This document shows positions 11,998 to 30,400 of a stretch of 64,000 nt of DNA, one piece after another; within the stretch, counting starts at the first letter, position 1, and each line of letters begins with the position of its first letter. Position numbers and translations under genes: made by a program. The DNA comes from Bacteroidota bacterium (GTDB lineage Bacteria > Bacteroidota > Bacteroidia > Bacteroidales > UBA12481), in NCBI GenBank assembly GCA_018669475.1, contig JABHCC010000124.1, positions 62,001 through 126,000 of the forward strand, read 5' to 3'. Under the pieces are notes generated by a model. That model was not told where the DNA came from. It did no database searches and saw only the letters and a list, made by a program, of their open reading frames with translations.

Positions 11998-14952
11998 TTA
12001 TTTGATTATTATCAACCACCCTTCACGGGCCGGAACTATAATTTTATCATGAAGAGAGAAGTTTTTAATTGGCTGAAAGTCCTGAATGGCAGGTGCATAA
12101 ATTCGAACTGCCTTGGGGTCAAGTCCTAATGTATCCCAATCAATCTGCAAACTTACTTCCTCGCATTTATCAGAAAAATTACCGATGGCCAGTATAGCTG
12201 AATTGCTTTTTTTATAAAGACTTATTTTAACATTTTTGCTTATTTTCTGATCAGTGCCAAGGGCATTCACCGGACAGTCCTCCCAGAATCCAATCATAAC
12301 AGCTTTATCAATTTCAAATTCATCCCAGAATCCCCAAACTGGCCGGGGATTTGCTGAATTTCCTTCTGATGTCCAGGGCAGTCTTACCGTCATACCAAAC
12401 AGCATGCCCAACCAGCGGTTTCCTCCTCCGTGAAGCATATCCCCCATTAAACCGAAAGGAATACCAGATACTTCGACAAACCAATTATCAGGAGGCATCT
12501 TATTATATTGAAAGCTCTCGCCGAACCATAGCTTGTCAACGTAGGGAAAGAAGTCGGTATATTGAATGGCCGGACCTTTTGAAAAGCCAGTGTTTGAATG
12601 CAGGTCGATCAGACAGCCTGGTTTTTCTGCCTCCATTACTTTCCGCATTCTTTTTAGAATCCGCCTGTCGAAAGAGACATCATCCAGATATAAGCCATCG
12701 ATATCCATATTTCGTACCAGCCATCCCAGTCCTTCGATATAATAATTAAACCATCGCGATGATTGAGTTGAAGTAAGTACTGAGGCATCAGGTGATCCTG
12801 ACTCAAAATGCTGATACCACTGTGGCGTATAGTCTGTGACAAAATGCTCACGCAACCAGGGATATCCACCCCCACGACCTCCTCCGAGAATCTCATCATC
12901 CAGACTTCTCAGTGCCCAGATCTCTGTTACATGATTGCTCAACTCCCTGATTGTGTAATAAATTTTAACTTTTAAACCCACATCATGATATTGGTCAACT
13001 ATTCCCCGTAATTCATTAACAGCTATAAATGGATAGTTTATGTAGGGATTATATTGATTTGCATGATGGATATTAACGATTTTTATTCCATGCTTCATCT
13101 CAGCCTCCACTCCGGCAGGTGCACCACCGCTGTGATAATACCGGTTTGTAAACTGATCAGCCGTGCTCAGTGCTTTGACCGGGGTAGGTAGTAATGCAAA
13201 TTCAAAAACCCATTTTTCACCCGGATAGAGCTCAAGGGCTCCTGTTCCTGCTGTAGCCAGAGTTTTATTTGGAAATTTCTTCAGGGATAAATAACCTTTC
13301 CCATCATTATTCCAGGGCTCAGGAGGACCTGGCTTGTATAAATTCTGAAGGGGCCCGTGATAAGAGCTGCCTCTTATCTCACACCACAATCCTCCCCTGG
13401 CATTTCCTACCCAGAAACTATCCTCTGGCTTATTCCATTTGCTTGTGTGATCATCGGGTGTTTCACATCCGGGCAGGCTCATGCCCATCATGTAACTGGC
13501 AGTCTCCGGCAGGAAAGGAATTTCTAAACGGATATCTTTCAGTGTGATATGCTCTTTTATATTCAGACTTAATCTGTAATTCTGATGGCCATCAAACTCC
13601 AGGCTGGAATATACATTCACATCCAAAGCCTGATTATTCCAGTTATGCTTCCACTCTGCCCTGCCAGAATTTTCTTTTGTAAGCTCTCCTCCCGGATGGG
13701 TAAATGAGAAAATTTTATCTCCGGAGTCAAAAATAAAAGAGACGGGATTTGCCAGAATATTTGTCTGAGTTGCAATCATGGCCGGTAAACCGGATGGAGC
13801 AAATTCAATCTTCGTCCCGGATGTATTCCAGGTATTCTTGGTGGATTTACTGATTCTGGAATAAGGCTTTACAGGCTCGTCATCCAATCCAGCAGTTGAA
13901 TTTAACCATCGTAGGCGGGAATGACGCCAGGTTTCAGCATCACCGCGATCGGATATTATCTCATTATTGATCTCAATATGACAGGCTACAGTTTGATCTT
14001 CAAAACCCCTGGCCTTAATAATGATTTCGCTCGAATATGTTCCCGCTTCTGTGTTTTCAGGGATGTCTACCCCAATCCACAGGGCCTGGACACCACCTTG
14101 CTTAAGGCTCAGGTGTTTGGTAAACGGAGTGCCATAAGGATCTACCCCTGCTGTATTAAAGCAGGTGAAATGCAAGTTGTCAATAATACTTCCCTCTCCG
14201 GCCTGGGAGGAGTCTTGTTGAAACTCTACCGAAAGATTCTCAACATCGCTACGAGCCGCAAATACTCCAATCTGAAAAACATAATATTCGTTTCGCATTG
14301 CTTTGCCATGAAAGCTGTTCGAAGGACCTGTCTGAATCCATTTATGAGGGATGTCATCCTTCATCCGGATAGGAAATTTACGATCCTCAGGAAACAGCAA
14401 ATAAGGCTCTTTGTAATTTTCCAACAAAGAATCTTTCTCAGATTCCAAAGCTATCACCTCCATTGGGTAAAAACTATCAAACAATGTGCGAGCCTGAATA
14501 GAAAGAACCTTAGCCTTCACTCCTGAGCCTTGTTCCTTAAGTCCCATATCGTGAGTTTTGGGTTTTAGGTATCCATAATGATAAAAACCCCATCCTTCCT
14601 GAACGACATAGGGCAGGTAGTAGAAATAGTATTGTCCGGCTTTGTCAACAGGCCCGAATGACAGTTGACATATTTCTTTATTTACTGTGATACGATGGAT
14701 GTTTTTTACTGTATCACCTGTGGCTGCTTCGATAATGATAAATTCTCTGATCTCAGGATTGGGGTCATGACGCCTCCAGTTAATTTCCAGATCTACCCAT
14801 TCAGCATCCCGACCGACTTCCAGAACGGCTCGATGGTTTCCAAATGATTCCTTCCAGGGTTTTTCAGGAACTGTATAGCTGTGAATGGTTTGGGCTGTCG
14901 AAAGGGCAGGGGTAAAGAAGAGGAGGATTAAAAAGAATCGAAGGTAGTTCAT
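11998..14952 (-). CDS. Secreted putative glycoside hydrolase (GH123/DUF6067-like), 984 aa
   Basis: I place the start at the ATG at 14952, followed by a signal peptide (MNYLRFFLILLFFTPALSTAQ). The first ~350 residues look like beta-sandwich domains (LSLKQGGVQALWIGVDIPEN, AGTYSSEIIIKARG). The middle part has the AEWKHNW and RNEYYVFQIG segments seen in Bacteroidetes proteins annotated as glycoside hydrolase domain-containing. The last third reads like a TIM barrel, with GLYLDDVSFDRR, LIDLHSN and KLWFGESF as candidate active-site strands with acidic residues. The overall design resembles the GH123/DUF6067 group, but I cannot assign a substrate. It is upstream of a TonB receptor on the same strand. 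Confidence is high that it is a real exported protein and moderate for hydrolase function. Confidence 0.65.
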   Translation of the reverse strand: MNYLRFFLILLFFTPALSTAQTIHSYTVPEKPWKESFGNHRAVLEVGRDAEWVDLEINWRRHDPNPEIREFIIIEAATGDTVKNIHRITVNKEICQLSFGPVDKAGQYYFYYLPYVVQEGWGFYHYGYLKPKTHDMGLKEQGSGVKAKVLSIQARTLFDSFYPMEVIALESEKDSLLENYKEPYLLFPEDRKFPIRMKDDIPHKWIQTGPSNSFHGKAMRNEYYVFQIGVFAARSDVENLSVEFQQDSSQAGEGSIIDNLHFTCFNTAGVDPYGTPFTKHLSLKQGGVQALWIGVDIPENTEAGTYSSEIIIKARGFEDQTVACHIEINNEIISDRGDAETWRHSRLRWLNSTAGLDDEPVKPYSRISKSTKNTWNTSGTKIEFAPSGLPAMIATQTNILANPVSFIFDSGDKIFSFTHPGGELTKENSGRAEWKHNWNNQALDVNVYSSLEFDGHQNYRLSLNIKEHITLKDIRLEIPFLPETASYMMGMSLPGCETPDDHTSKWNKPEDSFWVGNARGGLWCEIRGSSYHGPLQNLYKPGPPEPWNNDGKGYLSLKKFPNKTLATAGTGALELYPGEKWVFEFALLPTPVKALSTADQFTNRYYHSGGAPAGVEAEMKHGIKIVNIHHANQYNPYINYPFIAVNELRGIVDQYHDVGLKVKIYYTIRELSNHVTEIWALRSLDDEILGGGRGGGYPWLREHFVTDYTPQWYQHFESGSPDASVLTSTQSSRWFNYYIEGLGWLVRNMDIDGLYLDDVSFDRRILKRMRKVMEAEKPGCLIDLHSNTGFSKGPAIQYTDFFPYVDKLWFGESFQYNKMPPDNWFVEVSGIPFGLMGDMLHGGGNRWLGMLFGMTVRLPWTSEGNSANPRPVWGFWDEFEIDKAVMIGFWEDCPVNALGTDQKISKNVKISLYKKSNSAILAIGNFSDKCEEVSLQIDWDTLGLDPKAVRIYAPAIQDFQPIKNFSLHDKIIVPAREGWLIIIK

Positions 14953-14999
14953 TGGAATAGGCTTGAGTAACAAATCAATCTCTAAGATAACAAAAAGAG

Positions 15000-15024
15000 C
15001 GACTGGGTAATTATTACCCGGTCG
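15000..15024. repeat. Hairpin repeat upstream of the putative hydrolase
   Basis: The centre is GGGTAAT, T, ATTACCC, extended by CGACT/GGTCG arms, so up to 12 bp can pair. On the minus strand it is followed by CTCTTTTTG and then a TATCTTAG box at 14989-14982. It may be a REP-like element or a leftover terminator; no minus-strand gene lies upstream of it. Confidence 0.5.
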
Positions 15025-15606
15025 TCTACCCAAAACCTAAACCTAATCCTAAAATGAGAAACTCTAAACTTACACCAGATTGGTGCTAACCCTGTCTTAC
15101 ATGAAATATTACTAAACTTTACTTGCTTGCTGTTTTTATTCTTGTTTTTACGCTTGATTTATTCACACATTGAAATTACAACATTAAGCTCTAAAATAAC
15201 GATTCTCTTTGATGAACTATCGAAAATACCTGACGAATCGACGGTGAAAGTCTAACTGTGATAGTATTTTAGGGGATTCTGACCTTTAATTCTCCAGGGT
15301 TTTGTGTTGGGACTTCGTGTATAATGTTTACTTAAACTATTAACCTTAGTAATACCAGCAAAATAAATATCAGAGATTGAAAAACGATTATTACTGGTCT
15401 GTTAATCGAATTGTTTTGAGTTTTAATGTTCATCCCGGGCCTCCCTTTTCCTTTAATTAGTTCAACAGTTCTTATCTTTCTCACATCTAAAAAAGTATCT
15501 TTAGCTAAAATTAACTAGAACAATAAAGATATGGATTTGTATGATGAAAGACTGCTTCTCTTTGACGAACGACTATAATTATTTGATCAACTGAATATGT
15601 AGAACA
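15025..15606. other. Intergenic region with two -7-like boxes and a 15-codon ORF
   Basis: No convincing gene is present. Two Bacteroidetes-like -7 boxes point toward the kinase gene: TATCTTTC at 15473-15480 and TATCTTTA at 15496-15503. A 15-codon ORF at 15531-15578 (MDLYDERLLLFDERL) repeats the string DERL and may be a chance frame. The rest shows no repeats or RNA gene that I recognise. Confidence 0.4.
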
Positions 15607-17467: not shown

Positions 17468-18619
17468 ATGAAAAAAACTGTAAGCTTCCTGATTCTTTTT
17501 GTTTTTGTATGCACCCTTATTTCACCTGCCCAACGAGTACGGGATTTCGGCATTCAGCCCGGCATAATGGAACCTGGTCAATTGAATGCTATTACTGATG
17601 TGCCTGGTGTATTGGTCGGACAGGTGACTATATATCATCCGGGAGAGATTTGCACAGGAGTGACGGTTATTCTGCCACATGATGGAAATGTTTTTCAGCA
17701 TAAAGTGCCGGCAGCTGTGTATGTTGGAAACGGATTTGGCAAGCTCATGGGTAGCACCCAGATTGAAGAACTGGGCTATCTTGAGAGTCCGGTGGTGCTG
17801 ACTAATACCCTCAACGTACCAAAGGTTGCAGATGCAGTTCTCGACTATATTCTGGCTTTGCCCGGAAATGAAAGGATCCGATCTGCCAATCCTGTTGTGG
17901 GTGAAACCAATGATGGATACCTGAACGATATAAGGGGACGACATGTGCAGTCAGAACATGTTATTGAAGCTATTGATTTAGCAAAAAGCGGCCCTGTATC
18001 CGAGGGATGTGTTGGAGCAGGTACGGGTACTATATGTTTTGCCTATAAGGGTGGTATAGGAACTTCTTCCCGGCTTATGTCTGGTGGATTGAGTGACTAT
18101 ACCGTAGGAGTTTTAGTGCAGACTAATTTTGGTGGTGATCTGAAAGTAGATGGATATCCGGTAGGTGAGTATTTCAGGAATCAGAAAAAGGAATCTCACT
18201 ACGATCCTTCTCCTGATGGCTCCTGTATGATTGTTGTAGCAACAGATGCACCATTGGATGCAAGAAACCTGAAACGATTAGCAAAAAGAGCAATCTTAGG
18301 ATTAGCCCGAACCGGAGGAATTGCAAGTAATGGTAGTGGTGATTATGTTATTGCCTTCAGTACAGCACCTGAAATGAGAGAACATTACGGATCAGGAACA
18401 GTGACAACAGGGGGAAAGACAATTAGTAATGACCGCATTACGGGCTTGTTTCAGGGGGTAATTGAAGCTACGGAGGAAGCGATTCTGAATTCCCTTTTTA
18501 TGGCAACAGAAGTAGAGGGATATAAGGGCCACAAAGTGCCCCTTCTACCTAAGCAAAAAGTTATAGAATTACTAGAAAGTAGTTCAAGCATTATAAATAA
18601 CAGGGGGGCTGAAAAATGA
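17468..18619 (+). CDS. Secreted P1-family (S58, DmpA-like) peptidase
   Basis: This 383-residue protein starts with a signal peptide (MKKTVSFLILFVFVCTLISPAQ). It shows the S58 landmarks: NAITDVPGVLVGQVT, TGVTVILPH, NGFGKLMGSTQIEELG, GGIGTSSR and the autoprocessing/nucleophile region ASNGSGDYVIAFST. DmpA-type enzymes cleave themselves into two chains and act as aminopeptidases, often on D-amino acid amides or beta-peptides. The gene is divergent from the PLP enzyme, with about 80 bp between starts, and its TGA overlaps the racemase-family ATG by 4 bp. That coupling suggests a shared role, perhaps release and racemisation of D-residues (inference). Confidence 0.9.
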   Translation: MKKTVSFLILFVFVCTLISPAQRVRDFGIQPGIMEPGQLNAITDVPGVLVGQVTIYHPGEICTGVTVILPHDGNVFQHKVPAAVYVGNGFGKLMGSTQIEELGYLESPVVLTNTLNVPKVADAVLDYILALPGNERIRSANPVVGETNDGYLNDIRGRHVQSEHVIEAIDLAKSGPVSEGCVGAGTGTICFAYKGGIGTSSRLMSGGLSDYTVGVLVQTNFGGDLKVDGYPVGEYFRNQKKESHYDPSPDGSCMIVVATDAPLDARNLKRLAKRAILGLARTGGIASNGSGDYVIAFSTAPEMREHYGSGTVTTGGKTISNDRITGLFQGVIEATEEAILNSLFMATEVEGYKGHKVPLLPKQKVIELLESSSSIINNRGAEK

Positions 18620-19365
18620 TAGCTCTCATTGGAGGAATTGGTCCGCTGGCGGGTCTCAACCTGGCTCGCATTATTACAGAGCAGGTAAAAGTTAATAGGG
18701 ATCAGGATCACCATCCATGGATTTTAATGAACCAGCCCGGTCTTATACCTGATCGAACTGAGTTCCTTCTGGGAAAAGTAGACATAAACCCGGGAGATGA
18801 AATTGCACGTCAAATCCTGATTTGTGAAAGGGCGGGTTGTACTATAGCCGGAATAGCATGTAATACGGCTCATGCTCCTTTAATCTTCGAACGCATCCGG
18901 GAGGTGTTAAAAGAAGAAAAAAGTATGATCAAACTAGTAAATGCTATTGATGAAATGGTGAAATATTCAGAAGAGAATCTGGTGCAGGGTGAAAAAATTG
19001 GGATTCTGAATACAACAGGAAGTTATATGAATAAGCTACATTCCGGCCCGCTGAGAAAGGCTGGATTTGAAATTGTGGATATTGGTTTGGAAAAGCAGAA
19101 GAAGTTAATCCACGAAGCAATTTACCATCCTGATTGGGGAATAAAGGTGCAAGCAAATCCGGCAAGTGATGAGACTTTGACGAGATTGCAGGATGCTATT
19201 AATTTTTACAGACAAAATGGTGCAGGTGCTGTTGTTCTGGCCTGTTCTGAGATTTCACTTGTGATTAATCAGATTGACTGTCAGGGTTTAAACCAAATAA
19301 AACCCATGAATATTCTGGCAAGATCTTTATTAGAATCATACCTTTCTGAGGACCAGACTTTATAA
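18616..19365 (+). CDS. Asp/Glu racemase superfamily protein
   Basis: This 249-residue protein begins IALIGGIGPLAGLNLAR and carries the two catalytic Cys motifs of the Asp/Glu/hydantoin racemase fold, ACNTAH (first half) and ACSEIS (second half), as in PLP-independent aspartate racemases. A GILNTTGSYMNK segment begins the second half. It is translationally coupled (4-bp overlap) to the S58 peptidase. Most likely it interconverts L- and D-aspartate or glutamate in the cytoplasm. The coupling to an exported peptidase is slightly odd because the two would work in different compartments. It is convergent with the giant gene, with 87 bp between them. Confidence 0.85.
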   Translation: MIALIGGIGPLAGLNLARIITEQVKVNRDQDHHPWILMNQPGLIPDRTEFLLGKVDINPGDEIARQILICERAGCTIAGIACNTAHAPLIFERIREVLKEEKSMIKLVNAIDEMVKYSEENLVQGEKIGILNTTGSYMNKLHSGPLRKAGFEIVDIGLEKQKKLIHEAIYHPDWGIKVQANPASDETLTRLQDAINFYRQNGAGAVVLACSEISLVINQIDCQGLNQIKPMNILARSLLESYLSEDQTL

Positions 19366-19452: not shown

Positions 19453-22400
19453 TTATTCCTGCTCAGGTTTTCTATGATTTTGGCCTGTTTCTGATTGTGA
19501 AAGCTTTTGCATAACAGCCCATTTTGCTGCGGCAACTGTCTCCCTGTTGATTTTTTCGGTTATTCTTCCCTTCGCAAGGTCTTTTATAGCCAAATTGCCT
19601 TTTAGTAGTAATAATTGAGTGATCAGGTTATTGACCAAAGTCTCTTCACTATACCCTTCAGCCAGATATAAATTTTCAGTCAGTTTGAGAAACTCTTCAC
19701 CAAATTCAAGGTTGTTTGGTAAGGAGATAATCTGCTCGAATGTTTCACTATATGAAGACAATTCTGCATTCAAATGTGGAGTAAGCAGCAAAGGTGAAAA
19801 CTCTTTTTTGGGGTCCACAGGCTTGAAGCCGCGTAAGTTGGTCAAATCAACACTGGTTTCTTTCTGATCAATACGTACAAACTTTGCCTTTCGCATCTCC
19901 TCTAATTGGTAGAGATAAAAATTATATCTGAATACTTCGTTACTAATCACATTCTCTGGTAGAACATTTTTATAAGCCTGCCGGATGGACTCTCTGACAA
20001 TCTGTTTCTTTCGAGGAATTTCAGGTTTCTGTAACCTTACCTCCCGGATAAGCTTTACCAAATCCTGGGCAGCTGTCTGGGGACCAGAGATTTCCTTTCC
20101 TTTCTTGCCTAAATCAGTCGACAGAATACCTAATTGAATATTTCTTCCCTGCCCTTTGCCATTTTTTCCTCCTTTTAGGATTTGAATAAGGTCTTTTTTG
20201 ATTTTTACCTCGCCCTCTTCGGCAATAAATGGATTTCCGGCCGGAGTAGAGGCCAAAGCACCAAATACAGATGAGAAAAATGAGCGGTCCAGTTCAAATT
20301 GTACTTCATCATCATTGTCAGTACTTGCATTAACTGTGAACCTGTTCTTAATAATATCAAAACGAATATCCTTTACCTTGACAGTTTGCCCTGAATGCTT
20401 CCCTGATTTTGACTCGAAAATCTGGTTGATCAGTTTGTCCAGATCAATCTTGTCGATCATTTTGTATGATGATCCCAGGTAGTCTTTTCCGGTAGATGGG
20501 TCCGTAATCCAATTCAGAATATCATCAAGATAACTACCATGTCGGGATAATACATCCACGATATTTTTGTCTCCGGTATATCTGAGCAGGGTTCGTTGAA
20601 AATGCGGACTGTCCTGACTGGTTGCTTTTTCTTTTCTCTCTCCATGGGATTCGCGATACAGAATGAAATTCTCAGGATTGGCATATCTGCGGATACCTGC
20701 TTCATCTCTTGAAAAATTACTTGCAGTCAGCATAATGTCAATTTTGTAAGGCATACTTATGTCACAAAATCCGGATATCGTGCTTCGTGAGTTTAAATCT
20801 TCAATATTGCTGTCAGCTGAACTTTCAAAAAGTGTTGAATATTGCTTTATATATTCGGGATCAAAATCAGTTACACGGCTGAAGTCTCCCAATTCAGTAC
20901 CTATTCCATACAGGTTTCCTTTATCATCCGGAAAAACATGGAACATATCACCAGCAATCAGTTTAATTGATCTGATACCTTTAAGATCTTTTCTCATCCA
21001 TTTGAGCATCAAAGCGGCCAGCATTTCAGATTTTCCTACCCCACTATCACCACTTATCTGAACAACGAAAACAGTACCATCATCTTCTTCTACAGCAAAG
21101 AGGGATCCATGAACCGGCATACCCCCCATCTCTTTAACTTTCTCGTTGAGAAGAGTTAAGCGGGGTTTTTTAATATCACCAAAATAGTCCACCTTTCTTT
21201 TCAATGGAGTAAGGAGAGTTTTAATTTTTCCTCTTGGGCCATCTAAATCGAAAAACCCGATTCTTGGGTAGGAGATAACTTTCTCAGGTGCCCCGTAGAA
21301 CACAATAATATCTGGGACAAATTCTTTTATCTCATTAAGGGTAAAAGTTTGTGTACCAAGTAATCTGTAGTTATCTGTTAAGTATTTCAGGTATGATTTC
21401 TGAAAGATATACAGCTCCTTCACCAGTCCCTGGTCGAATAGCTTGCAGCGATAATCTTCAGCATCCAGATTGCCAACAAAACGATTCATCCGATCACCAA
21501 AAAAGACAGCCGTAGGACGAGTTTTCATTTGTTTAATAAAGTCCTGATTGCTGTCTGAAGATTCTGTGTCAGTACTTTGTAAATCTTCTTCGACCCGGTC
21601 AATTTTGTGAAATGGGAACTCCCTTTTCTTGGCATCTGTAGCAATTCTGGTATGAGTCTGAACATCCTTTTCTCCAACAATAACCCCGCATTTCTGCAGT
21701 AAATCATTTATCCATCCTAAAGTTGAGTAGCGTTTATCTTTAGTAATATCATTGTCCATAGTGAATCCAGTATGAAGGGTATAGCCATGCTGGATCATTT
21801 CATTATTTGCTGAATTTTGACGGCTAAAACGATGTTCCAGCAAAAGCAACAGAATGTGATTATACTCTGTATATCTTGTGGTTGACCTGGTCTTGTTCAT
21901 GGCCTGAGTAAGAAAGAGAATAACTGAGCGCACTTCTTTTCTGAGCTTATCTGCAGAGATCTTTCTGGTTTTCTGAGCTTCAACTCCCGACCAGATATTA
22001 CTTAATGTGTAATCTATGGATGACAGGAGAAATTCACCGGCAATAAGGCGTGCCTCACCTTCATTGCATTCGTGTAATTTGCCCTGTAACTCATTAATCA
22101 TTTTGTTCCATTCTCCGCTGAAAAAGCTTGTGCTTGTAATTAGATAGGCGTTAAGCAAACATCCGGCAGGGGAATGAGGAGCTTGAATATTTGAGGTCAG
22201 CAATACTTCTGAACTACGTATAATCGCTTCGCTTTGATCACCTGGAAACCTTTCTTTCTGTGGTTTTAGCAATCTTACTGCAGAAACAAGCTGATGATCC
22301 AGATCAATAGAGCTTTCTGTAATTCCGGTGTTTTCAATAAATATCTCTAAGCCACTCAGGAATAATTCTTCGAGGGTTGGATCTTCGCCGTCTTGTTCAA

Positions 22401-25400
22401 ATGGCAGGTTAAAATGGAGGAGTAACTCCCGGATGAATTTTTTGAGAATCTGATTGTATCCTTCCAGTTTAGCCAGATCACCAGCCCTGTCATCCTCATT
22501 TACCCTTAGTGCCAATAATTTAACTTTTGCATCACTGAATAGAGTTCTTTCTAAGGCAATAAGAATCTCTTTCATGACCAGTAACTCATTTGGGCCATCT
22601 AAAATGTGATCATCCGGCAGGAAATTAAGCTTGGAACTAATATACTTCAGGATAGTGGATTTTCCGTAATAGGCAATAACCTCATGTATATCCCAGTCAC
22701 TAATGGCAGGTATACTTTTGTATATCTGGGGTAGAAGGTTTTCATATACCTTGGTGAAGGCCTGGCTGCGGATAAATGAAATCAAATCAGGACATTGGCC
22801 TACATTGTCATAAAACTCCAGTACTGAGTTTTCAGATGTCGCAATTGTATTGATATTAACTCCTGAATGCTTGGGCGACGGCAAATACAAACTTTTAATA
22901 TCGCGAATAAGCAAACTTGATTTCACTGATTTTGCCTGATCAGACAAACTGCCAAATTCAGAGATAATATCACTTATATTACTACTGATAGGTTTCCCTT
23001 CAATATAATTTTTCCACTGCCGGATAAAAATAGAGAAAGCTTGAGCTACCTCTGCACGGAAGAATTCATAAGCCTCGTTGGTGCCATCCAAATAGTCACC
23101 GAGAGAGAATCTTACGAAACCTGCGGGGTAGGGTAATACAGCTAATCCTCTTTCCTGAGCGAGTTTCAGGCAGTATGGCTCCAGCTTGACAAATTTGTCA
23201 GGGTCAAGAAATTGCAGGTTAAAAAGATATGATCCGTCTGATTCAAGAATATCAATCTCATCATGCGTACCTGTTTCTTTAATGATTTTTTTTGCTTCTT
23301 CACGTGCAATTTCAAAGCGAGTGCCCGACTCTTTGCGGAATTCCTTGTTCACCCTAAAACCATTTAGCTTTCTGACTAGTTGTTCTTTATAATATGAAAA
23401 GAAAGGCTCATCCTTGTATTTGAAGTCATCGGGTAATTCAAGAACATCAAGCTGATCAAGTGATTTTAGTTCATCAAGCAAGAAGAGATGAAGCGGACTT
23501 CCTTCGAATAATGATAATCTGCCGTACCTGCCGGATTTTCCAAATATTTTATCTGGCACATTTGCAGCAGTCTCGGTTTTGATATATGCAATGAGCTTTT
23601 CTTTGATTTTGTATCTGGATGCATCCTTTGGCAGGTTTTCATCCATCCTTACCTTAATGCGTTTGGCCAGCTGAGCCACCTCTAAGGTGTTGACAAGTAA
23701 GAATAAGGAGTTTGTGTTGGCCCGGTCTATTGAGAACAGTTTTCGAGCAAAATCCACTACGTCTTTTCGTGCAGGAGTGGCAGCAAGTGAACCAAGACGA
23801 TCACCGGTTGCACCCAGGTTCTTTGTTGTAGAGAGGGAAGTAACCATGCTAATAGTGGGGTAAGTGCCAAAATTATTCATGATATATCTTGAAATAGTCC
23901 TCCATTTCGGTTCTTCAGGATCATCTACTTTCACGGCATCATTATAGGCCTCATCCAGGAAGAGTGTAATTTTTGTTTTGTTGAGGAATTTTAGAAAGCG
24001 AATCATTGCCTGATTATTGAAATCAGAGTATCCTGTTGGATTTGCAGGATCGTTGATGACGAAAGTGGCGTTTTCACAAAATCTATCCCAAAGGGTGCCA
24101 GTGTCATCGAAGAGATGAAATGTATCACGAATACGCTCCAACTTCAGCTGCAGGCGTTCGAAGTCGACTCTGCCATTTTCAAAAAGTTCAATATTTATAT
24201 CAAAGGGGTTGATGTCAAATCGATCTGGTGGAAAGAGATCCCGATATTCCCATGAAGCCTCTTCAACAAAATAGATATATGGATTGGGCTGGCGATTCTC
24301 CCAGAAAAGAAGATCCCTGATGATCATCTGAACATCGTCAGATACGGATGATTTGTCAAGAGTGGATAATTTCGAGACAAAATCCTGAATAATAGCCTGG
24401 TCTTCAGGTGATTTAAGTTCATATTTTTCTTTAATTCCGAGATCAATAATCAGATTCTTAAATCTCCCCTTGTTATCAGCCGTATTTTCTACTTTGGTCA
24501 GGTATTCTTTGTACTTCTCAAGAAAGAGATTGATGCCAAAGTTTTTGTGAAAATGGTTGTGGAGAGTTCGTTGATAGGCATCAGGTAGTACATCTAAAAT
24601 TACAGCAGAGTTGTGAACGATATCCTGGTCAACTGTTTTTAATTTGCGCTGCAAAAGAAATTCGCCGAAAGTTTTTATTTGTGTACGTCCACCTCCCTCC
24701 AGAATGGTCGAAATTTCTAATTTTGGATTACCTGAATAGAAATAGTCTCTGGTTCTTTCTTCGAATTCCTTTACTAATTCCCGGTTCAGTTTTCTCTGTT
24801 CAGAAGGGGTTTTTACTCTGATAATGAGTTGGATAAATTGTTGTAATTTCGACAGGGTATAAATGTCTTTTATTACCTGCCGAGCAAATTCGTCAAATTT
24901 GAACAACATGATATCCTGGTCGGGCTGATCAGGTTTTGCAAGTTGTTCTTCTCTGATTTGCTTCATTTCCCTCTCATACTCACTTATCTGTATGCCGATT
25001 TTATTGATGAATTTTCGCAGATTATCTTCGTTTACCTTATCAAGAATTAGCCGGAGGTTCATCTGGGTATTGGCCGGGGCACCAAGCTTCTTCGTGTGTA
25101 TCTTATTAAGAGTATTGATTATGCCATTGTGAAAGGCAAATACCAAACATGTATTTGTTGCTTTTGACTCGGCTGAGTCATCCAGAAATATTGTTCGGTT
25201 CAGAAAGGGAAGAAAATCATGGCGACCCAGAATATTTTCGCGAAGAGCTGATACTCTGACAGCGAATAGTGAAACAGGATCTTGTTTCATTGAATTTATC
25301 AGTGAGTCAGCATTTTCATAGGTGATCTCCTGAATAATATCTCCCGTAAACACCTCTTCACGCAGCAATTTCACAGCGGTTTCAGCTGTGCCTGAAACTA

Positions 25401-26064
25401 AAGTCCTGATCAGGCCATTCAGACCTTTGAAATTTACCGACGATTCAGTGCGACTAAGAAAAAATGCTTTTTCAGCGGCTGAGGTGTAGTGAGTTGACTG
25501 TACCACCATCTGATCGAGGAGGTCAAGCATATAATTCCACTGGGCTTCTTCAACATTGTCGTTTATTCCGATTAGATCTCTGAACTTTCTTAGTACTCTC
25601 ACCTCATCGCCAATCATCACTTTATACAGGAAATCGATTGTTTTCTGTGTTACTGGTGGTGTACCTACAGAGAAATCATGCAGACGGAGGATATTAGTCA
25701 AACGATTCCTATCCTTCTCATCTACCAATTCATGATCTATTGCATATCTGAGATTTGTTTTGAATGCATTTCTCCTTGCTGAATACCGAAAAGCCTTTGA
25801 GTCTTCAGTTGGAGCCAACATCAGGTTAGTTTCAGTATAACCTGGCAGACTTTCTTTTAGTTCAAGTACATATCGGTTAATCTCTGCCGACTGAATATGT
25901 GGGTCTAATTGTTCCTCGTAAGATACTCTGACAAAGGATCGTAATGTTTCCATCACATGTTCTGGCAGAAAGTTCTCAGCTCTTTCTCCTAGTGAGGCAT
26001 AGAGGTTAATAAAATCTCTGGCTTCTTCGTTCAATATAGCTTTTGGAGATCCGGATAAACGCAT
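19453..26064 (-). CDS. Giant fusion: PLP fold-type I aminotransferase domain plus HPr-kinase/PEPCK-like P-loop domain, 2203 aa
   Basis: One uninterrupted 2203-codon frame. Residues ~550-1000 hold a class I/II aminotransferase domain: NDPANPTGY at 671-679, LFLDEAY with PLP-ring Asp704 and Tyr707, Schiff-base Lys748 in STTKNLGATGDRLG, and carboxylate-binding-type Arg985 in VRFSLG. An aminotransferase N-terminal-like DFSVGTPPV lies far upstream at 130-138. Residues ~1000-1560 look helical and are unrecognised. Residues ~1560-1800 resemble the HPr kinase/phosphorylase C-domain: His1652 in PVHGSLFAV, P-loop GDSGVGKSE (1672-1680, Lys1678) and IAGDM where HPrK has ADD. The C-terminus is again unrecognised and charged. 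There is no signal peptide or membrane helix, so it is cytoplasmic. The coupled chemistry is unknown; a phospho-substrate used by the PLP site is one idea only. It stands alone, with a -7 box at 26089-26082. Confidence 0.85.
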   Translation of the reverse strand: MRLSGSPKAILNEEARDFINLYASLGERAENFLPEHVMETLRSFVRVSYEEQLDPHIQSAEINRYVLELKESLPGYTETNLMLAPTEDSKAFRYSARRNAFKTNLRYAIDHELVDEKDRNRLTNILRLHDFSVGTPPVTQKTIDFLYKVMIGDEVRVLRKFRDLIGINDNVEEAQWNYMLDLLDQMVVQSTHYTSAAEKAFFLSRTESSVNFKGLNGLIRTLVSGTAETAVKLLREEVFTGDIIQEITYENADSLINSMKQDPVSLFAVRVSALRENILGRHDFLPFLNRTIFLDDSAESKATNTCLVFAFHNGIINTLNKIHTKKLGAPANTQMNLRLILDKVNEDNLRKFINKIGIQISEYEREMKQIREEQLAKPDQPDQDIMLFKFDEFARQVIKDIYTLSKLQQFIQLIIRVKTPSEQRKLNRELVKEFEERTRDYFYSGNPKLEISTILEGGGRTQIKTFGEFLLQRKLKTVDQDIVHNSAVILDVLPDAYQRTLHNHFHKNFGINLFLEKYKEYLTKVENTADNKGRFKNLIIDLGIKEKYELKSPEDQAIIQDFVSKLSTLDKSSVSDDVQMIIRDLLFWENRQPNPYIYFVEEASWEYRDLFPPDRFDINPFDINIELFENGRVDFERLQLKLERIRDTFHLFDDTGTLWDRFCENATFVINDPANPTGYSDFNNQAMIRFLKFLNKTKITLFLDEAYNDAVKVDDPEEPKWRTISRYIMNNFGTYPTISMVTSLSTTKNLGATGDRLGSLAATPARKDVVDFARKLFSIDRANTNSLFLLVNTLEVAQLAKRIKVRMDENLPKDASRYKIKEKLIAYIKTETAANVPDKIFGKSGRYGRLSLFEGSPLHLFLLDELKSLDQLDVLELPDDFKYKDEPFFSYYKEQLVRKLNGFRVNKEFRKESGTRFEIAREEAKKIIKETGTHDEIDILESDGSYLFNLQFLDPDKFVKLEPYCLKLAQERGLAVLPYPAGFVRFSLGDYLDGTNEAYEFFRAEVAQAFSIFIRQWKNYIEGKPISSNISDIISEFGSLSDQAKSVKSSLLIRDIKSLYLPSPKHSGVNINTIATSENSVLEFYDNVGQCPDLISFIRSQAFTKVYENLLPQIYKSIPAISDWDIHEVIAYYGKSTILKYISSKLNFLPDDHILDGPNELLVMKEILIALERTLFSDAKVKLLALRVNEDDRAGDLAKLEGYNQILKKFIRELLLHFNLPFEQDGEDPTLEELFLSGLEIFIENTGITESSIDLDHQLVSAVRLLKPQKERFPGDQSEAIIRSSEVLLTSNIQAPHSPAGCLLNAYLITSTSFFSGEWNKMINELQGKLHECNEGEARLIAGEFLLSSIDYTLSNIWSGVEAQKTRKISADKLRKEVRSVILFLTQAMNKTRSTTRYTEYNHILLLLLEHRFSRQNSANNEMIQHGYTLHTGFTMDNDITKDKRYSTLGWINDLLQKCGVIVGEKDVQTHTRIATDAKKREFPFHKIDRVEEDLQSTDTESSDSNQDFIKQMKTRPTAVFFGDRMNRFVGNLDAEDYRCKLFDQGLVKELYIFQKSYLKYLTDNYRLLGTQTFTLNEIKEFVPDIIVFYGAPEKVISYPRIGFFDLDGPRGKIKTLLTPLKRKVDYFGDIKKPRLTLLNEKVKEMGGMPVHGSLFAVEEDDGTVFVVQISGDSGVGKSEMLAALMLKWMRKDLKGIRSIKLIAGDMFHVFPDDKGNLYGIGTELGDFSRVTDFDPEYIKQYSTLFESSADSNIEDLNSRSTISGFCDISMPYKIDIMLTASNFSRDEAGIRRYANPENFILYRESHGERKEKATSQDSPHFQRTLLRYTGDKNIVDVLSRHGSYLDDILNWITDPSTGKDYLGSSYKMIDKIDLDKLINQIFESKSGKHSGQTVKVKDIRFDIIKNRFTVNASTDNDDEVQFELDRSFFSSVFGALASTPAGNPFIAEEGEVKIKKDLIQILKGGKNGKGQGRNIQLGILSTDLGKKGKEISGPQTAAQDLVKLIREVRLQKPEIPRKKQIVRESIRQAYKNVLPENVISNEVFRYNFYLYQLEEMRKAKFVRIDQKETSVDLTNLRGFKPVDPKKEFSPLLLTPHLNAELSSYSETFEQIISLPNNLEFGEEFLKLTENLYLAEGYSEETLVNNLITQLLLLKGNLAIKDLAKGRITEKINRETVAAAKWAVMQKLSQSETGQNHRKPEQE

Positions 26065-26272: not shown

Positions 26273-26300
26273 GAAGACTGAAAACTGAAGACTGATAACT
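26273..26300. repeat. Heptanucleotide tandem array (4 units)
   Basis: Units are GAAGACT, GAAAACT, GAAGACT and GATAACT, head to tail, ending 8 bp before the ATPase start codon. See the other 7-bp arrays at 43114, 43234, 45511 and 61464. Confidence 0.8.
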
Positions 26301-26308
26301 TGATTAAA

Positions 26309-27505
26309 ATGCATTTTCTGAAAAAAATATCATCCCATCTTCTTAAATCCACTTCTTTAGATAATAAGAGATTCTTATTTGACAAGATCACGATGAGTAG
26401 CAGAATTGTTGGAATAGTTGGTGGTCGTGGTGTAGGTAAAACAACTTTGCTCCTTCAGTTGATGAAAACACGATTGGGGAAGAATGACAGAGGGCTTTAC
26501 CTCTCTCTTGACGATTCGTATTTTGCTTCGCACTCACTTCTGGATACAGCACAAAAATCTGTACAAGGTGGTATTACACATTTATTTATTGACGAGTTGC
26601 ACAAATATCCTGATGGTCTTAATGATATTCAGGTGATAGAAAGAGAAATGCCTGATTTGTCTGTTGTTTTCGCCGCTTCATCATTAGGTGATCATGACAG
26701 TATTTTTTACGAGTTGTCACGTATTGCTGATCTTCATTTTTTACCTGGTCTTTCTTTCAGGGAGTATTTGGCCTTCAGACATCAGCATTATTTTCCAATC
26801 ATCCCGTTTAATGAACTTGTTGAGTACAACAGAATACCTGGAGATAAAGTGTTGAATCGCATAAGACCGTTACAATATTTTGATGATTATTTACGACTGG
26901 GATATTATCCGGCAGGGTATGAAGGGGAAATGGATTCTGTAGTTTGGATTAAAGAACTGCTGGCCCGTATTTTGGAAGGTGATTTTACTGCTGTTCATCA
27001 CATTGATTATGAGTCTATCCTAAAGATCAAACGTATTTTAATGATTCTGGCGGAGAATGGGCCGCTAAAACCAAATATTGAAAAACTGGCTGATCAGGTT
27101 GGTACTACACGCGACAGCTTACTCAAATTTTTGAAATACATGCATAAGGCGGGCTTAATAGGGTGGCTTACCGGGGGACAGGAGGATATCAACTATGTCA
27201 ATAAACCAGATCGTCTGTGTTTAAATCATCCCAACCTTATCAGGGCCTTGTATGGTGATAATGCAGAGAGCTCAAATATTTATGAGAGCTTTTTATTGAA
27301 TCAGCTAAGAGTATCTCATCAGGTAAATTTGACAATAGAGGGTGATTTTCTTATTGATCAGGAATATGTTTTCGAACTCCCATGGAGTAATGCAAAGCGA
27401 AAAAGAAAATCTGAAGGCAGCATCCTTAAATATGAGATCAGTCCAGGGGCAGAGAAGAGGGACACCAATAAACTGCCATTGTGGATGATCGGATTCCTAT
27501 ATTAA
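26309..27505 (+). CDS. AAA_14/DUF4143-type ATPase
   Basis: From the ATG at 26309 the protein has 398 residues. It has Walker A GGRGVGKTT near residue 40, Walker B HLFIDELHKYP, a sensor-like VVFAASSLGD, the LSFREYL motif typical of this family and a winged-helix-like middle part (IEKLADQVGTTRDSLLKFLKYMHKAGLI). It ends with KLPLWMIGFLY, the usual end of family members. The nuclease-like DUF4143 part is reduced: the usual D-(D/E)xK residues are not obvious, although EFELPWSNAKRKRK and LKYEIS lie there. Function in the family is unclear. An in-frame TTG at 26300 lies inside a repeat and is unlikely to be the start. Confidence 0.82.
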   Translation: MHFLKKISSHLLKSTSLDNKRFLFDKITMSSRIVGIVGGRGVGKTTLLLQLMKTRLGKNDRGLYLSLDDSYFASHSLLDTAQKSVQGGITHLFIDELHKYPDGLNDIQVIEREMPDLSVVFAASSLGDHDSIFYELSRIADLHFLPGLSFREYLAFRHQHYFPIIPFNELVEYNRIPGDKVLNRIRPLQYFDDYLRLGYYPAGYEGEMDSVVWIKELLARILEGDFTAVHHIDYESILKIKRILMILAENGPLKPNIEKLADQVGTTRDSLLKFLKYMHKAGLIGWLTGGQEDINYVNKPDRLCLNHPNLIRALYGDNAESSNIYESFLLNQLRVSHQVNLTIEGDFLIDQEYVFELPWSNAKRKRKSEGSILKYEISPGAEKRDTNKLPLWMIGFLY

Positions 27506-29200: not shown

Positions 29201-30400
29201 TTACATTAAATATTTTGCTGTAGTAACGAGCTCGGTATTTATTTCAGGATAAAGAGATTCTATCGAACTAAAGGATCTGGGACGTTTACTATTACTCCAC
29301 TTTATCTCTATGGCATTGATTTTGCCTTCACTATGAACGATGAAGTCTATTTCTGTTTTATTTATTGTTCTCCAAAAGTTCACTTTTTTCATTGAATAAT
29401 AATCTTCTGAAAGTATTTCTGTCAGACAGAAGTTCTCAAACAAGCTACCCTTGTCAGTTCTTAGGCTCAAATCATTAAAATTATTCAAAATGAAATTCCT
29501 TAATCCCAAATCCAGAAAATACAGCTTTGGTGTTTTTGTGATTTCTTTGCTGTAGTTTTTATGAAAAGGGTATATTCTTTTACAGATAAATGTTTGTTCA
29601 AGGATATTCAGGAATTCTTCAATCTTCAATCGGGAAACTCTCATTGAGTTTGAAATAGAATTGACATTTAACAAATCACCTGACTGCATTGCAATCTTGA
29701 TTAAAAATTTGTTGTAGATATCAATATCTTTTAAATTGATGAAATCCACAAGGTCCTTTTGAACGTAAGCCTGATAAATGTCTTTAATTCTTAATTTTTT
29801 ATCGATTGATTGCGGTTCTTTCGCAATAGCAGGATAAGAGCCGAACAAAAGAATATTATTCAAAGCATCTTGTTTTGTTATAGGTCCGGCAAAATCAACA
29901 TATTCATTAAATGATAATCTGTTAATTGTAAAAACACGAGATCTGCCAACGAGATGTTCTTTGGTCTTTGCTTTTATCTCTAACTGTGAAGAACCGCTGT
30001 ATATAGTTTTTATGTTTCTTTTCAGGTCAAAAACTTCTTTTAGAAATAGTCCTGGAGAATTCAAACGCTGTATCTCATCTATAAAAACATATTTCCTTCT
30101 ATCATCATTACCTAGAAACTGAATAAATTCCGGAATTGCTGAAAACAAGGAATGTAACTGCATATCGTCTAAATTGAAGTAGAAAATATCCTTATCAGAG
30201 ATTCCTGATTTAAGCAGATCTTCAATTAGCAGCCAAAGCAAGGAGCTTTTGCCAACCTGCCGGCTACCAACAAGACCCAGGATAAGCTCGTTACTCATAT
30301 TGTCTATCAGCGTTCTGAAGATTTCTCTGGTTCTAAGATTAAATGAATAATCCTCTTGATCCCGCCATGGATTTTGCAATAAAAAAATTTCGCTAATCAT
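29201..30400 (-). CDS. AAA_14/DUF4143-type ATPase, second and divergent copy
   Basis: This 399-residue protein has Walker A GSRQVGKSS (about 44-52), Walker B KYVFIDEIQRL, the YSGSSQLEIKAK sensor segment, LSFNEYVDFAG, a winged-helix part (SISNSMRVSRLKIEEFLNILEQ) and a complete C-terminal nuclease-like DUF4143 region (ENFCLTEIL, KTEIDFIVHSEGKINAIEIKWS) with the D-ExK residues of the PD-(D/E)xK fold. It is a different subfamily from the 26309 ATPase. Its promoter region carries a 28-bp perfect palindrome overlapping a -7 box, so tight control by a dimeric repressor is likely. It is convergent with the beta-propeller lipoprotein. Confidence 0.88.
   Translation of the reverse strand: MISEIFLLQNPWRDQEDYSFNLRTREIFRTLIDNMSNELILGLVGSRQVGKSSLLWLLIEDLLKSGISDKDIFYFNLDDMQLHSLFSAIPEFIQFLGNDDRRKYVFIDEIQRLNSPGLFLKEVFDLKRNIKTIYSGSSQLEIKAKTKEHLVGRSRVFTINRLSFNEYVDFAGPITKQDALNNILLFGSYPAIAKEPQSIDKKLRIKDIYQAYVQKDLVDFINLKDIDIYNKFLIKIAMQSGDLLNVNSISNSMRVSRLKIEEFLNILEQTFICKRIYPFHKNYSKEITKTPKLYFLDLGLRNFILNNFNDLSLRTDKGSLFENFCLTEILSEDYYSMKKVNFWRTINKTEIDFIVHSEGKINAIEIKWSNSKRPRSFSSIESLYPEINTELVTTAKYLM

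Follow-up and report, generated by a model that had tools for sequence, protein, structure and literature searches.

A transaminase that makes oxaloacetate from aspartate is the natural partner of an enzyme that uses oxaloacetate, such as phosphoenolpyruvate (PEP) carboxykinase (PEPCK). HPr kinase/phosphorylase is without the N-terminal lobe and the Lys-Lys pair of PEPCK, and the pyrophosphate (PPi)-type PEPCK is a protein of about 1100 residues. The gene analysed here lies in a window of 64,000 nucleotides (the whole stretch of DNA that was analysed, from contig JABHCC010000124.1 of a Bacteroidota bacterium), at positions 19453..26064 of the minus strand, from an ATG start to a stop codon at 19453-19455. 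It encodes a 2203-residue protein, hereafter the fusion, in which a pyridoxal 5'-phosphate (PLP) aminotransferase domain is joined to a PEPCK-like domain. The aminotransferase and PEPCK parts belong to familiar kinds of protein; what appears to be new is their combination, the overall size and a PEPCK branch so divergent in sequence. No published description of the pairing was found in the open-access literature, subscription papers being mostly outside it, in line with a preliminary description of the gene, made from its letters, which knew of none.

With the class I aminotransferases of fold type I, such as the kynurenine aminotransferase II homologue 1x0m, LysN (2zyj) and the aspartate aminotransferase TM1255 (1o4s), the fusion has in common the whole fold, the motif order, the Schiff-base Lys, NPTG, the cofactor-site Asp and Tyr and the C-terminal Arg. 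It differs from them in the length of this domain, ~950 residues versus 390 owing to a large insertion and extensions, in an identity of only ~11-17%, and in the attached PEPCK-like domain. With the ATP- and GTP-dependent PEPCKs (the host's own pckA at G000:C200; 9e35, rat PEPCK) it shares both lobes, the Y-G-KK motif, the His, the P-loop, the Asp and the NSR Arg, whereas the P-loop reads GDSGVGKSE and not GLSGTGKTT, a Gly stands for one kinase-2 Asp, the score for PF01293 is below the cut-off, and the protein is 2203 residues long. HPr kinase/phosphorylase has the P-loop letters and the preceding His in common with the fusion, which itself has no PF07475 match. The PPi-type PEPCKs of Entamoeba and Propionibacterium (reviewed in PMC8100219) are also large proteins and carry out the same type of reaction as that proposed below. 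They are said to be without the catalytic motifs of the ATP/GTP enzymes (PMC10441589), motifs which the fusion has.

Two predicted folds in one polypeptide

Residues 74-1023 (22996..25845), the insertion included, are predicted to form a complete fold-type-I aminotransferase fold. The AlphaFold2 model of the front half (residues 1-1035, built on 72 sequences) reached a predicted local distance difference test (pLDDT) of 84 and a predicted template modelling score (pTM) of 0.84, and VIA-align placed its residues 74-1023 on the kynurenine aminotransferase II homologue with a Z of 23.7 and a root-mean-square deviation (rmsd) of 3.2 Å over 381 of ~400 residues. In Pfam, PF00155 (Aminotran_1_2) matched residues 630-776 only (E 7.6e-9, 35.7 bits versus a cut-off of 19.7). 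The domain had been thought to start at about residue 550; its fold begins near residue 74, because an insertion of ~290 residues splits it. The first large-domain strands, 218-225, 244-248 and 266-271, precede the insertion; those bearing NPTG, DEAY and the Schiff-base Lys come after it. The insertion itself, approximately residues 311-600 (24265..25134), is mostly helical and as conserved as the catalytic parts, with low model confidence at 496-524; a helical N-terminal extension, residues 1-73 (25846..26064), lies outside the aligned range.

The full set of aminotransferase residues is present. It comprises the NDPANPTG motif at residues 671-678 (24031..24054), the DEAY motif at 704-707 (23944..23955), Lys748 (23821..23823), the predicted Schiff-base lysine in an SxSTTK context (S745-T-T-K748), and Arg985 (23110..23112), the predicted α-carboxylate Arg. 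Lys748, the NPTG region around N675, D704 (the predicted PLP-nitrogen Asp), Y707 and Arg985 are all invariant.

Residues 1429-2012 (20029..21780) are likewise predicted to form a complete two-lobed PEPCK fold, more than an HPr-kinase-like P-loop domain. The rear-half model (residues 1031-2203, 75 sequences) had a pLDDT of 78 and a pTM of 0.69; the best 50 Foldseek matches were all PEP carboxykinases (top E 2.1e-6), and HPr kinase was none of the fold matches listed by Foldseek or VIA-align. VIA-align of residues 1429-2012 (399-982 of the half) gave a Z of 14.2 and an rmsd of 4.5 Å, with 378 residues aligned to PEPCK residues 10-547; as this range covers most of the 615 residues of the matched chain, both lobes are taken to be present. 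Searches of solved structures by sequence, with the single protein or a profile of the C-terminal half, were of no help for the rear half and yielded no convincing PDB match. A profile comparison with canonical ATP-PEPCK, the host's copy included, reached E 5e-4, placing Y1627-FGD-I-KK1633 on the Y-MGS-M-KK of the host's enzyme and H1652 on the metal His, with the P-loop in register.

Most of the PEPCK catalytic residues can be assigned. Y1627-FGDI-KK1633 (21166..21186) matches the PEPCK Y-GEM-KK motif with its metal-binding Lys, and His1652 (21109..21111) matches the metal-ligand His. The P-loop GDSGVGKSE occupies residues 1672-1680 (21025..21051) and is followed by Asp1706 (20947..20949), the kinase-2 metal ligand, preceded by an invariant Gly1705. 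Arg1760 (20785..20787), in LNSRSTIS, matches the Arg of NSRASYP in the host's own PEPCK sequence, and Arg1473 (21646..21648), in TRIATDAKK, is tentatively equated, from motif and spacing alone, with the substrate Arg of PEPCK (GRSPKD). R1473, Y1627, K1632, K1633, H1652, K1678, S1679, D1706 and R1760 are invariant. The fusion had no match to PF00821 at E 1e-5, and the Pfam scan gave none to any PEPCK family; its matches to FapA, NACHT and STAND fell below their cut-offs and were taken as chance. Because it lies below the sequence cut-offs and is without the Asp-Asp pair, the rear half is termed PEPCK-like and is not filed as a PEPCK member.

The preliminary description is borne out in its essentials: the frame is exact, the motif residues stand where it put them, from N671-G678 through D704-Y707, K748, R985, H1652 and G1672-E1680 to the GD pair at 1705-1706, and a PLP aminotransferase and an HPrK/PEPCK-superfamily domain do occur in one polypeptide, with catalytic residues intact in both and, in the AlphaFold models it suggested, both folds complete. 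Its naming of the second domain was half right. The superfamily holds; the HPr-kinase or serine-kinase flavour, understandable from the letters GDSGVGKSE, does not agree with the two PEPCK lobes, the fold matches, the Lys-Lys pair, the NSR Arg and the candidate substrate Arg.

Conservation, distribution and stand-alone relatives

Given the window's base composition, an open run of 2203 codons would arise by chance with a probability of ~10^-62. Strong purifying selection acts on the fusion gene: compared with its closest full-length relative it has a nonsynonymous divergence (dN) of only 0.14, and the synonymous sites are saturated (proportion of differing synonymous sites, pS, 0.84). When 84,980 species genomes were scanned, relatives proved to be encoded at 128 places; the best 80 were fetched and most are full length, ~70 named genome loci having whole copies with 48-80% identity. 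Among a set of 99 relatives, the match to the fusion covers 2150 residues or more in about 10 genomes, with 51-80% identity, and other genomes have fragments of it where contigs end. In the alignment of ~80 relatives, the catalytic residues of both halves are invariant at every covered position, the sole exception being one row (L087) that was translated in the wrong frame.

The carriers, mostly Bacteroidota and more than a hundred species in all, comprise Bacteroidales, Marinilabiliales, Rikenellaceae (Alistipes), Odoribacter, Flavobacteriia and a few Ignavibacteriota and Calditrichota, and include the named isolates Alistipes sp. dk3624, Odoribacter sp. Z80, Ancylomarina euxinus and Geofilum rhodophaeum. 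In a tree made by a quick method with a midpoint root, the Ignavibacteriota and Calditrichota fusions form one clade nested among those of Bacteroidota, and the Rikenellaceae, Odoribacter and Marinilabiliaceae fusions mostly cluster by family. The phages and viral contigs searched held no match to the fusion; a phage or plasmid origin was set aside, the only plasmid match being a stand-alone relative on one Limosilactobacillus fermentum plasmid.

The nearest relatives of the rear half are stand-alone proteins of ~577 residues (L136-L139, L174-L182, L020), which align with fusion residues 1548-2008 at ~28-39% identity in the matched segments. One member is AYP99509.1, the L. fermentum plasmid protein, annotated as phosphoenolpyruvate carboxykinase. 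These proteins are without the aminotransferase, retain the DD pair, and have NAR(V/I)TIP at the position of the fusion's NSR Arg. Compared as a family profile, they match ATP-PEPCK with an E of 5.5e-7 and the fusion with one of 1e-24, and the members scanned lie below the curated Pfam and NCBIfam PEPCK cut-offs. In four genomes, all from one family, a stand-alone copy directly adjoins the gene for PEP carboxylase, and in three of these EPSP synthase is there as well; at four loci a second copy adjoins class I fructose-bisphosphate aldolase. ATP-PEPCK is missing in 6 of 8 stand-alone carriers, as opposed to 14 of the 96 remaining relatives (p = 0.0006 when counted by genome and 0.015 when counted by family, the genomes not being independent), and the same six are also without GTP-PEPCK. 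The neighbours and the missing PEPCKs together point, more strongly than the other evidence, to oxaloacetate/PEP chemistry in this branch of the superfamily, and the 577-residue proteins are a candidate third PEPCK family below the library cut-offs.

Proposed function and competing explanations

A PLP transaminase and a PEPCK-like domain have one natural metabolite in common, oxaloacetate, and for this reason we propose, tentatively and with a confidence somewhat short of even, that the fusion is a bifunctional enzyme interconverting aspartate and PEP via oxaloacetate. Starting from the computed frame, conservation, two folds and invariant catalytic residues, we infer that both sites are active, that aspartate is the substrate and oxaloacetate the intermediate, that the latter is channelled, and in which direction flow may run. 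The PLP half would interconvert aspartate and oxaloacetate, with 2-oxoglutarate/glutamate as the partner, and the rear half would interconvert oxaloacetate and PEP, with CO2 released or fixed and a nucleotide or another phosphoryl donor. The net result would be an interconversion of aspartate and PEP in one protein, with the unstable oxaloacetate kept inside, and in anaerobic Bacteroidota the PEP-to-aspartate direction would be about as likely as the gluconeogenic one.

Several observations weigh against this proposal. By VIA-align score the front half is almost equally close to enzymes of aspartate, kynurenine, aminoadipate and alanine, and the fold does not give the amino acid substrate. In the rear half, Gly1705-Asp1706, with the Gly invariant, stands where PEPCK has its kinase-2 Asp-Asp, PF01293 scores 10.8 bits versus a cut-off of 26.5, and the P-loop letters are of the HPrK style. 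The PEP carboxylase and aldolase neighbours are those of the stand-alone relatives, in one family, and not of the fusion, around which a conserved gene neighbourhood was looked for and none was found. Finally, an ordinary PEPCK is also present in 20 of 25 fusion carriers. The fusion would therefore not be the main PEPCK and would have a special role, perhaps as a link between carbon flow and nitrogen in the form of aspartate, or as a shield against the decay of oxaloacetate. That the fusion replaces pckA was rejected, as ATP-PEPCK is missing in its carriers no more often than in others (5/25, p = 0.54).

A broader version of the proposal adds that the PEPCK half belongs with the 577-residue proteins to a third PEPCK family, one which Pfam and NCBIfam miss and which provides PEPCK activity where the known types are missing; taken whole, with the one-polypeptide aspartate-PEP enzyme enclosing its oxaloacetate, it is rather less likely than not, and we hold it with less confidence than the proposal itself. 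If true, one very large enzyme of gut, sediment and marine Bacteroidota would combine two textbook reactions where PEP, oxaloacetate and aspartate meet, the fusion would allow oxaloacetate channelling to be tested directly, and a candidate PEPCK family missed by the sequence libraries would fill an apparent gap in the metabolic models of genomes that have no known PEPCK.

The alternative that fares best, though we consider it unlikely, makes the rear half a PEPCK-fold kinase acting on another small molecule or keto acid, which the PLP half makes or uses, so that the whole is a specialised biosynthetic enzyme. The invariant Gly1705, the ordinary PEPCK usually kept in carriers and the PLP substrate left unfixed by the fold all agree with it, as does an identity of only 12-13% between the rear half and solved PEPCKs. 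However, the residues on the substrate side of PEPCK, K1632/K1633, R1760 and probably R1473, are retained, the stand-alone relatives lie among PEP and gluconeogenic genes, and no biosynthetic cluster was found around the fusion.

It is improbable that the rear half is an HPr-kinase-type protein kinase, with the PLP half or some other protein as its target, and that it controls transamination in this way. His1652, GDSGVGKSE and the GD pair do occur in HPrK order, and the stand-alone relatives match Hpr_kinase_C (PF07475) weakly, at 13.5 bits versus a cut-off of 33.3; yet the fusion itself has no such match at E<=1, both PEPCK lobes are predicted in the rear half, the PEPCK-type Lys-Lys and NSR Arg are retained, and no HPr kinase was found with PF07475 in the 99 relatives. 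Free-serine phosphorylation is, like HPr kinase activity, less likely. The preliminary description had counted SerK among the HPrK/PEPCK-fold kinases, which is contradicted by the annotation of SerK (TK0378) as a ParB protein (PMC5120207), so that the free-serine-kinase analogy is left without a shared fold; SbnI, which it had also named, is mentioned in a paper on the ParB-CTPase fold. For its suggestion of serine phosphorylation followed by PLP chemistry no specific evidence was found, and the oxaloacetate link is better supported.

Marginally less likely again than a protein kinase is an arrangement in which catalysis is confined to one half, with the other serving as a sensor or scaffold, such as a regulatory domain that binds PLP or a nucleotide. 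A size far above catalytic need would fit it: some 1000 residues are part of neither fold, namely the insertion, a middle helical region that is the least conserved part and has no assigned fold (residues 1031-1428, 21781..22974) and a C-terminal helical tail (residues 2013-2203, 19456..20028). The full catalytic sets, needless in a dead sensor, are nevertheless invariant in both halves. Very unlikely, lastly, is a PLP half that acts as aspartate β-decarboxylase or another lyase and not as a transaminase. L-aspartate β-decarboxylase and its relative 3f6t do stand with aspartate aminotransferases among the first Foldseek rows of the front half, but the 50 VIA-align rows listed are all ordinary class I aminotransferases (compatible with a decarboxylase too), and a decarboxylase would yield no oxaloacetate.

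The locus and its surroundings

The fusion gene is probably a single-gene unit, because its neighbours are directed away from it or towards it. Convergent to it, at window positions 17468-19365 on the plus strand, lie an S58 peptidase (DmpA type) gene and an Asp/Glu racemase gene that overlap by a few bases; this pair adjoining the fusion gene is local and not a conserved neighbourhood. The 5.56-Mb assembly of the host genome has one whole copy of the fusion. On another contig (G000:C171:16246-16341, L002), near a HipA-like open reading frame, lies an isolated segment of 32 residues, 81% identical to fusion residues 1982-2013, which is perhaps the remnant of a second copy. Beyond the start of the fusion gene, two AAA_14 ATPases (PF13173) are encoded less than 3 kb apart, at 26300-27505 on the plus strand and 29201-30400 on the minus strand, the second with DUF4143. 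Farther off on its other side, at 11998-15033 on the minus strand, is a gene for a full-length protein of the glycoside hydrolase 123 N-terminal type (PF19543, 1176 bits).

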